Source of the DNA: Fidelibacterota bacterium
Lineage (GTDB): Bacteria; Fidelibacterota; Marinisomatia; Marinisomatales; TCS55
DNA: 61,096 bases
Assembly (NCBI GenBank): GCA_014381755.1
Contig: JACNLB010000083.1
Location: forward strand, 1-61,096
Direction: 5' to 3'
Below the pieces are notes generated by a model, which had not been told where the DNA came from, did no database searches, and worked only from the letters and a program-made list of their open reading frames with translations. Shown in pieces: positions 36,396 to 39,916 of this stretch (the stretch's first letter is position 1; every line of letters begins with the position of its first letter). The position numbers and the translations under genes were made by a program.

Positions 36396-37607
36396 TTATA
36401 TCAATTTTTCTAAAGCGCTTGCCACCTTCGAAATACCGCGCTTAATTGTTTCTTTGTCAGTGGCACACGAAAATCTTATATGTCCTGGTGCTCCAAAACC
36501 ATCTCCAGGCACCGTAACTACAGCCTCCGAATTTAATATATAATCACTCAGGTCGAAAGAATCCTGAATAACTTTTCCATTGGCTTTTTTACCCATATAT
36601 TCTGAAAAATTCGGGAATGTATAAAAAGCACCGCCCGGTACCGCACAGGACACTCTTGGGATATCATTTAACAGTTTAACCATCAAATCCCTCCGTTCCA
36701 TAAATTGTAAACGCATATCTTCTACGGGCTGTTGATCTCCCGACAGTGCTGCAATACCGGCTCGCTGGCCAATGGAATTAGCGCAGGATGTTGCCTGGCC
36801 TTGAATTTTACTCATGGCCTTAATGATCGTTTTGTCTCCAGCTGCATACCCAATTCGCCAACCCGTCATAGCGTAGGTTTTTGAAAGACTCAAACATGTG
36901 ATTACTCTAGCCCCGATATTTTGGTCACGGTTTAGTTTTTCAGTGCTGACAAATTCTCCATCAAACACGAGACGTTCATAACATTCATCGGAGATCACAG
37001 TCCAATCGTGTTTTACGGCCAGTTTTAGTAATTGAACAAGCGCTTCTGCGCTCCAAAGACCTCCGGTTGGATTTGAAGGTGAATTGACGATCACTCCTTT
37101 TATATCAGGTGTTATCTTATTTTCAAGATCAGCGAAATCTGCTTCAAACTGCTTATCCGGCAGTGTATCTACTAAAATCGGTTCTGCATCTGCAAGACGT
37201 ACAAATTCAGGAAATGATACCCAATATGGAGAAAACACAACTACTTTATCTCCCTTATCAAACAGCACTTGGCAGGCGTTGTATAAACTTTGCTTTTCAC
37301 CATTGGAAACAAGAATTTCAGTTGGTACATAATCCAAGCCATTTTCCCGTTTCAATTTTTCACAAATTGCTTGACGCAGTTCAATCATCCCCGGGCCGGC
37401 AGTATATTTTGTAAAACCGTCATCCATAGCCGTTTTCCCTGCAGCAATGATATGGTCTGGTGTATTGAAATCCGGTTCGCCAACACTGAAGTTAATCACA
37501 TCGATTCCCTGGGATCTCATTTCTGCTGCCTTGGAAGCCATTTCCAAGGTAAAGGAAGGCTTAACCCGCGCAACGCGGGATGCCAGTTTTACAGTTTGGG
37601 ATGTCAC
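36396..37607 (-). CDS. Class I/II PLP aminotransferase (aspartate aminotransferase-like)
   Basis: [41 protein letters not shown]. Confidence 0.95.
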
Positions 37608-38606
37608 TTATAGTTCGTGTTGTTTTTTGTGAAATTCAGGGCTGTTAAATTTGTCATCTTCTGAATTTGGAATTTTCTTCTTGGGTCGTCCGGGTTTTTT
37701 TGGTTTTTTAGCCATTGGTTGTTCTTCCTCTTCAATGTCAAATTCTTCTGAAAGTACTTTTTTAGTACTTTTTTTAGGTTTACGATTTTTAACCTTGTGG
37801 CGTTTTGGTTTTGGAACATCTTCTACAGAAACCCCTTCCAAATCTGATTCAGCCATTGCGTTAGATAGAGATTCTTCTCCATCCTCTGCTTTTCCTTTTA
37901 AGCTTTCTTCATCAAACGAGAATGATTGTGGGTTAAACATACCGTACACTGCTCCATAACCGCGGGTAATTCCATTGCCAATACCCAAATAATTTGGTAA
38001 TAGAAAATTGGTTCTGAATTCACCTGAAAACGCTCCCCAATTACGTTCATCTACCGGTTTGGGGAACATGGATGTGAGGTTCACTTTTGTGAATATTTTT
38101 TCTTGGAGCTCCACTCCCATCTCTCGGGATAAAAAGACAATATTTTGGCCAAGCAAGCGATTCAAAAAACCGATACGTTCCATATTATTCAAAAATCGAT
38201 ATCGGCTTCCTGTTGTTTGATTCAGCGCTACCCACGGCGTCAACAACCGATAGCGAATCAATCGGTCCACAGGCCTAAACTGGTCATCTTTTACGTCAAC
38301 TTCCGTATCAAAGACTTGAAACGTTATATTCCCAAAATCCAAGATATCCAAATGTTTGGCTATCTCAACAATGGGATCTACACCTTCATTTATACCAATC
38401 ATATATACTTGCTCATTCAGTATTTTTATTTGAACACGCGGGTATAAAAACCGGTTTCTATAAGTACCATCCATCATAGGTACTATTTCTAAATCAGGAT
38501 ATTGGCGCATAAATACACCTTTGACCTGATAGGGTGTTTTTCTAACAGGTTTATCAGTTATTACTCGAGCAATAACTGTCCGAATTGGAGGACTGCTATA
38601 TTCCAT
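37608..38606 (-). CDS. Cas6b-like RAMP-fold protein with Lys-rich AT-hook-like tail, not near any CRISPR locus seen
   Basis: FLYPRVQIKILNEQVYMIGINEGVDPI and LLTPWVALNQ match Cas6b N-terminal/middle motifs as remembered; GAFSGEFRTNFLLPNYLGIGNGITRGYGAVYG matches the Cas6 C-terminal Gly-rich loop; tail KPKKPGRPKKK. Confidence 0.72.
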   Translation of the reverse strand: MEYSSPPIRTVIARVITDKPVRKTPYQVKGVFMRQYPDLEIVPMMDGTYRNRFLYPRVQIKILNEQVYMIGINEGVDPIVEIAKHLDILDFGNITFQVFDTEVDVKDDQFRPVDRLIRYRLLTPWVALNQTTGSRYRFLNNMERIGFLNRLLGQNIVFLSREMGVELQEKIFTKVNLTSMFPKPVDERNWGAFSGEFRTNFLLPNYLGIGNGITRGYGAVYGMFNPQSFSFDEESLKGKAEDGEESLSNAMAESDLEGVSVEDVPKPKRHKVKNRKPKKSTKKVLSEEFDIEEEEQPMAKKPKKPGRPKKKIPNSEDDKFNSPEFHKKQHEL

Positions 38607-38668
38607 GTATATACCTCTTACACTTGTTTATAATTGAAAAGCGCTACACTTTTCACTGGAAGTTAAAC

Positions 38669-39916
38669 CTATTGGTTCATTGTTTCCATAAATTCTTCAT
38701 TGGATTTGGTACGCTTCATTCGTTCATGCATGAACTGCATTGCCTCAATAACATTCATCTCGTTTAGCAGTTTACGCAAGATCCACATTCGAGCCAGTGT
38801 TTTTTTATCCAACAATAATTCTTCTTTTCTTGTCCCCGAGCGAATAATGTCAAAGGAAGGGTAAATCCTGCGATCGCTTAAACGCCTATCTAACACCAGT
38901 TCCATATTGCCGGTTCCTTTAAACTCTTCAAAAATGACTTCATCCATTCGACTGCCTGTGTCAATTAGGGCTGTAGATACAATGGTAAGACTACCGCTTT
39001 CCTCAGTATTTCGAGCCGCTCCGAAGAATTGCTTTGGCTTTTTCAGCGCATTTGCATCTACTCCTCCGGAAAGAATTTTACCGCTATGAGGAATAACTGC
39101 ATTATGTGCTCGCCCCAAACGCGTTAAGCTATCCAGCAGAATAACGACATCATCGCCATATTCCACCATGCGCCTTGCTTTCTGAAGAACCATGTCAGCT
39201 ACGGCAACGTGGCGTTCAGGCGGTTCATCAAATGTTGAGCTAACCACCTCAGCCTCTACATGACGTTTCATATCTGTCACTTCTTCAGGCCGTTCATCAA
39301 TGAGTAAAATGATTAATTTTACGTTTGAATGATTTTTCAAAATTGAATTAGCAATTTTTTGAAGTAATATTGTTTTACCTGTTTTTGGCTGGGCAACAAT
39401 CAGTCCTCGCTGACCTTTGCCAATAGGTGAGACAAGATCCATTATTCGAGTAGATAAATCTTTTGGATCCGCTTCTAGGTTAAATTTTTCTTCAGGATAA
39501 AGCGGCGTCAGGTTATCAAAAAGAATAGCTTGTTTAACGTGATCCGGACTTTTATCATTGACCGTTTCCATTTTTAATAGTGCATAAAACCGTTCTTTCT
39601 CTTTCGGTTTACGAATCTGTCCATAAATGGAATGACCGGTTCTTAACCCAAATCGTTTGATTTGGGATGGGCTTACGTAAATATCGTCGGGACCGGGTAA
39701 ATAATTAAAGTCTGGACTGCGTAAAAAACCGTATCCTTCTTTTAATACTTCCAGAACACCTTTGGCGTGTAATACACCTTCTTTTTCATTTTGTGTTTCA
39801 AGAATTTTGACAATTAATTCCTGTTTATTCAAACCGGAAAACCCTGGGATTTCCAGCTCATGGGCCTTTTTTGCCAATTCCTTGATGTTTAATGATTGTA
39901 GTTGATTAACATCCAT
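38669..39916 (-). CDS. rho: Transcription termination factor Rho
   Basis: [45 protein letters not shown]-terminal OB/RNA-binding [32 protein letters not shown]. Confidence 0.98.

Follow-up and report, generated by a model that had tools for sequence, protein, structure and literature searches.

The window, by which we mean the whole 61,096-nt stretch of Fidelibacterota DNA analysed here, encodes directly after rho a 332-aa protein. Its sequence, profile matches and predicted fold all show it to be a genuine Cas6b homologue, and it is no part of a CRISPR system but sits by rho instead. We consider it very probable that this protein, cas6L, is a domesticated Cas6b that works outside CRISPR and without histidine catalysis. 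Its sequence and those of its orthologues show that it has retained the double-RAMP fold and the glycine-rich loop, has lost the HxH motif and the catalytic Tyr, and is both rho-adjacent and strongly conserved.

A Cas6b homologue

37608..38606, minus strand: cas6L coding sequence, rho-linked Cas6b-like protein of 332 aa (Pfam and PADLOC)
37932..38606, minus strand: Cas6b core, residues 1-225, two RAMP/RRM-type domains (AlphaFold2 and Foldseek)

The 332-aa ORF matches both Pfam families, Cas6b_C at 4.1e-24 and Cas6b_N at 3.7e-11 (PF17955 and PF17262, both above the curated cut-off), as well as the PADLOC profile Cas6b at 1.4e-39, and a phmmer search of the PDB relates the protein to M. maripaludis Cas6b, 4z7k, with an E-value of 6.6e-28. 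The AlphaFold2 model of the core (pLDDT 96, pTM 0.90) has the double RAMP fold of the 4z7k type, and its top PDB match in Foldseek is 4z7k_A (TM 0.80, E 4.6e-19), followed by other Cas6 proteins. At the family level, the profile aligns with that of CRISPR-linked Cas6b at E 2e-43. Besides the fold, cas6L shares with the M. maripaludis protein (4z7k/4z7l) the glycine-rich loop, YPxxQxK, YxFxTPW, N155 and FxGxFxxN; it differs in the absence of H38, H40 and Y47, in an Asn where the loop has Lys/Arg, in lying beside rho rather than in a CRISPR locus, and, in the window's order, in a long tail.

For the comparisons below we took every Cas6b_C match from 199 phylum genomes and read the loci, which fall into two kinds, rho-linked and CRISPR-type. 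The rho-linked set comprises 93 sequences, namely 92 distinct rho-linked proteins and the window protein, all of the same phylum.

Loss of the catalytic histidines

38466..38489, minus strand: EIVPMMDG, residues 40-47, site of the deleted HNH holding H38/H40 of M. maripaludis (phmmer, profile alignment and orthologues)
38448..38450, minus strand: Phe-53, aligned with Tyr-47, a catalytic residue of M. maripaludis Cas6b (phmmer alignment and orthologue counts)

A preliminary description of this DNA had placed catalytic histidines near residues 38-40 of the Methanococcus Cas6b and had noted that no His is present at the equivalent stretch here, and both statements hold. His-38, Tyr-47 and the His that aligns with Haloferax His-41 (H40) are named for catalysis by M. 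maripaludis Cas6b (PMC3945376), and the two histidines together with Tyr-47 are described as mattering for it (PMC3652601). In the phmmer alignment, H38-N39-H40 of 4z7k lie opposite P43 and a gap/M, with Y47 opposite F53, while the profile-profile alignment sets VP--MMDG of the rho-linked family against IHNHLQDN of CRISPR-linked Cas6b, so that both place the HNH site within EIVPMMDG. The catalytic set H38, H40 and Y47 is replaced in cas6L by Pro-43, a two-residue deletion and Phe-53. Across orthologues, HxH is found in none of the 93 distinct rho-linked proteins and the two-residue deletion is common to all of them, and the loss is therefore not a sequencing accident. Position 53 is Phe in 65/93 and Tyr in 14/93 of the rho-linked set, and Tyr in 8/9 CRISPR-type sequences.

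We also considered whether a catalytic His has been relocated within the core, and reject this, since no His column is conserved among the 93 rho-linked sequences and 13 of the cores contain no His at all. The single His of the window protein's Cas6 domain is H85, in AKHLDIL, as the preliminary description had it; its column is not conserved (K in 47/93). Outside this domain the full-length protein has His at 270, 326 and 330, of which the tail residues 326 and 330 are unlikely to serve as a general catalyst, the tail being absent from orthologues of other classes. A sub-group of rho-linked proteins (e.g. L048, L095, L113) carries a His four residues upstream of P43, in D/N-H-P-I-V-P or similar (DHPIVP), which is not conserved in other rho-linked members.

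The further prediction that canonical cleavage is absent stands only in part. The loss of His catalysis is well supported, with H38, H40 and Y47 missing and no substitute His in the core, but an absence of all cleavage is not implied, because Sulfolobus Cas6 (Sso1437) cleaves without an active-site His through Lys/Arg residues (PMC3652601) and basic residues are conserved here too: R50 in 89/93, R57 in 88/93, K61 in 87/93 and R/K215 in 91/93. These four are at most candidate counterparts of the Sso1437-type network K25/K28/K51/R231. A Lys/Arg-based nuclease like that of Sulfolobus remains a serious rival explanation, in which cas6L would be a His-independent endoribonuclease that uses these residues in place of HxH/Tyr to process an RNA of the cell, perhaps that of its own leader, whose dedicated motif (see below) would be a candidate substrate. 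We nevertheless regard it as unlikely: the Y47 position is mostly Phe, Asn stands in for the loop Lys in 85/93, the analysis turned up no defined cleavage signal, and K61 and R215 are conserved in HxH-bearing Cas6b as well and are therefore not replacements as such. The crenarchaeal Sso1437 shares with cas6L the lack of His near the active site, yet it is a dimer that actively processes crRNA in an organism with CRISPR, whereas cas6L has no linked array and any cleavage by it would be hypothetical. P. furiosus PfuCas6nc (3ufc; Foldseek match E 2e-7) likewise has a non-catalytic Cas6 fold, but is a paralogue in a CRISPR-bearing archaeon, while cas6L has become fixed beside rho in a phylum of bacteria.

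Core surface and C-terminal tail

37947..37997, minus strand: glycine-rich loop PNYLGIGNGITRGYGAV, residues 204-220 (glycines retained; the CRISPR-type Lys at 211 is Asn)
37611..37931, minus strand: charged low-complexity C-terminal tail, residues 226-332 (tails in the window's order only)
37617..37649, minus strand: C-terminal linear motif FNSPEFHKKQH, residues 320-330 (tailed orthologues)

The loop glycines G210, G216 and G218 are present in all complete sequences and YPxxQxK is conserved in the rho-linked family. The loop Lys is present in 8/9 CRISPR-type sequences and has given way to the Asn mentioned above in the rho-linked set, and the core is less basic than that of CRISPR-type Cas6b, with a charge of +4 in the window protein and a rho-linked mean of +2.8, against +7 to +13 in CRISPR-linked Cas6b. 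As fold and glycine-rich loop are retained, it is plausible that the core still binds RNA; with a less basic core and the Lys lost, this binding could also be weak or gone, and the lower positive charge argues against strong RNA binding of a general kind.

In the window's order the tail is charged and 40-157 residues long, and it is absent from the other classes. It ends in a motif, [FY]N..[YFH]H...[HL], in all 66 tailed orthologues; this motif was found in no other protein of the window's genome. It is conceivable that RNA binding has been lost altogether and that cas6L is a structural or protein-protein scaffold, for instance for Rho or the aminotransferase encoded next to it, docking by the tail motif. 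The drop in core charge, the lost loop Lys, the invariable presence of the motif in tailed members and the constant gene neighbourhood all fit such a role, but the glycine-rich loop and YPxxQxK are still conserved and a leader motif is dedicated to cas6L, and we judge the scaffold, too, to be improbable.

A motif in the cas6L leader

38643..38649, minus strand: leader motif GTGTAGC, some 37-43 nt upstream of the ATG (enrichment in rho-cas6L spacers)

The sequence GTGTAG is present in 20 of the 92 distinct rho-cas6L spacers, where 0.76 would be expected from dinucleotide shuffles (maximum 4 in 200), compared with 1/381 at other gene starts; the sequences are related, and the 20 spacers are thus not independent events. 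They span families f1, f5, f6, f10 and f11, all of one order, and GTGTAG is also found in the spacers of two later genomes (L151, L155). The longer form [AG]GTGTAGC occurs 22 times in 692 kb of loci, 11 times in sense orientation in a cas6L leader (ten found automatically, plus L066) and never in the leader of any other gene in these loci. A genome-wide regulon sharing the motif is not supported: AGGTGTAGCA gave 28 matches in seven whole genomes, as against 37 for the reversed control, and those clearly inside a leader belong to five cas6L genes only. In some families the motif and the ribosome-binding region coincide, as in GAGGTGTAGCA-ATG of L054 and L055.

Although the window's sequence around GTGTAGC can be drawn as a 9-bp hairpin, folding energies of the leaders are no better than those of shuffles (z -1.1 to +0.3). 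We therefore reject a conserved leader hairpin and claim only a linear motif; nor does the window contain an Rfam match. Given that the motif is seen in five families only and that the leaders fold no better than shuffles, it could also act at the DNA level or be the binding site of a different protein.

Residence beside rho and absence of a CRISPR link

38669..39916, minus strand: rho, directly upstream of cas6L, 62-nt spacer (adjacency in orthologues)
36396..37607, minus strand: aspartate aminotransferase family gene, abutting cas6L (gene order)

In all 95 copies with upstream sequence on the contig, the rho-linked gene follows immediately after rho on the same strand, mostly at a distance of 7-92 nt; two more copies lie at contig ends. 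The aspartate aminotransferase gene is usually found downstream, in many relatives with a 4-nt overlap, and beyond it the order runs DUF1385, prfA, prmC, ubiA, dnaE. Adjacency to rho does not by itself show that the two proteins act jointly.

No link of rho-linked cas6L to cas genes or a CRISPR array was found. Cas1 occurs in 31 of the 199 genomes of the phylum, and none was detected in the window's genome (a draft 89% complete, with type III effector genes outside the search). Among the 40 genomes of the window's family, none has Cas7 (PF05107) and 36 are matched by the rho-linked profile, and the window itself is free of CRISPR-like repeats. A role for cas6L in trans, as a Cas6-like factor serving CRISPR arrays at other places in the genome, is very unlikely: it has the Cas6 domain and type III systems mostly appear to take Cas6 in trans (PMC12669027), but Cas1, Cas7 and repeats are lacking within the scope just given, the examined type I-B operons of the phylum encode their own Cas6b, and every known catalytic residue is lost.

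Evolution and proposed role

In comparisons of close relatives that allowed dS to be estimated, dN/dS is 0.015-0.05 in the core and 0.08-0.16 in the tail. Some of the dS values lie above 1, close to saturation, but in the two closest comparisons (dS 0.3 and 0.5) the core value is 0.015-0.02. These ratios point to strong purifying selection on the core. A pseudogene or random decay is rejected, as the ORFs are intact and core dN/dS is low. In the tree, 36 diverse rho-linked cores lie on one side of a branch and 14 CRISPR-type sequences on the other (bootstrap 91, SH-aLRT 71), which is supportive of a split between the two kinds, not decisive. Groups inside the rho-linked set broadly match genome groups, as expected for vertical descent.

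A permanent Cas6 at the side of rho, devoid of the three catalytic residues of its best-studied relative and in a mostly CRISPR-free group, suggests recruitment to a new RNA role. As a whole, we lean towards an explanation in which an ancestor within the phylum acquired, probably a single time, a Cas6b of type I-B-like character, which settled after rho as a resident gene with no CRISPR role and became an RNA-binding regulator, perhaps of its own mRNA too. RNA cutting by the His mechanism would have been lost and a specific RNA would be bound; cas6L would be expressed together with Rho by co-transcription and act as a post-transcriptional regulator or adaptor. Taken alone, regulation by RNA binding is for us an evenly balanced proposition. 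More tentatively, cas6L may bind its own leader at GTGTAG(C), a site that overlaps the ribosome-binding site in some families, and thereby regulate its own abundance. The C-terminal motif seen in the window's order is probably a docking site for a partner protein, and the gene order makes Rho the first candidate. A wider reading, which we find rather unlikely, would make the dead Cas6 a core expression regulator of the phylum: it would be co-expressed with Rho, use the former crRNA-repeat surface to bind selected transcripts, control its own synthesis at the repeat-like GTGTAG leader site, and modulate Rho through the tail.

His-less or non-catalytic Cas6 proteins are known from CRISPR-bearing archaea, and where CRISPR components are reported to have taken on other functions, these are for the most part entire effector modules, mobile elements or crRNAs. 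In the present case it was one RNA-processing subunit that parted from CRISPR. It lost the active site known for such proteins and is now a near-constant gene in several classes of a marine phylum (Marinimicrobia, now Fidelibacterota) that is widespread and for the most part uncultured. The new element is this fixed, non-CRISPR, rho-linked setting; the open-access literature, a scope that leaves aside preprints and most subscription papers, yielded no rho-linked or domesticated Cas6 and no Cas6 in this phylum. A 'Cas6' label from automatic annotation would mislead, wrongly implying CRISPR activity for these genomes, and the leader motif private to cas6L offers a concrete candidate RNA target.

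Distribution and CRISPR-type copies

The rho-linked profile matches 130 of 245 phylum genomes, a few of them through CRISPR-type copies only. A wider draw of 297 genomes, about 50 of them from other phyla, gave one match in the latter, with CRISPR-type sequence and neighbours, and rho-linked cas6L is likely to be restricted to the phylum, as far as this small sample of other phyla goes. No viral relatives were found. In the streamlined genomes (about 1 Mb) of family f2 (G028, G103; L147, L148) cas6L is absent and rho abuts the aminotransferase gene, so the gene is dispensable in that lineage. Other lineages devoid of cas6L have after rho either the aminotransferase or an L31-like ORF; the latter, which resembles ribosomal protein L31 (rpmE, by eye), is seen in L138-L140 and L145, with DUF1385 next in L138-L140.

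There are nine CRISPR-type copies in the phylum, eight with a complete N-terminus, of which seven have HNH and one, L122, has NNH. The majority of the nine are located in type I-B operons. The type I-B Cas6b proteins of the phylum (e.g. L118, L119, L124-L126) belong to the same Pfam families as the rho-linked proteins, at about 25% mean identity, but lie in cas8b-cas7b-cas5b-cas3 operons and keep HNH. Typing identified all four operon genes for L119; for L118 and L123-L126 it identified cas7b. Five genomes (G005, G011, G135, G165, G167) hold both kinds of Cas6b. Elsewhere, Cas6b in CRISPR loci on Bacteroidota plasmids (Runella, Aureispira, Persicobacter) has HNH, and that of G282, a genome of another phylum, HGH.

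Some individual loci deserve mention. The CRISPR-linked Cas6b at L123:4954-5403 (G034 C10) is N-terminally truncated, with an in-frame TGA in the homology, in an otherwise ordinary type I-B operon. L120 and L122 are orphan CRISPR-type copies outside any type I-B operon. At L120:358-1571 (G165 C148), an orphan with intact IHNHL adjoins an ORF6N-like gene with no cas operon, in a genome that also has a rho-linked copy. At L122:7244-12714 (G135 C18), a Cas12a gene (PADLOC Cas12a, 967 aa read) follows a short way downstream of the orphan (INNH), with ORF6N-like and transposase-like ORFs, judged by eye, between the two. Finally, L117 (G096 C12) encodes a third, divergent Cas6-type protein of 227 aa, followed by a reverse-transcriptase-looking ORF, on a contig stretch that also holds a Cas1 match (PF01867).
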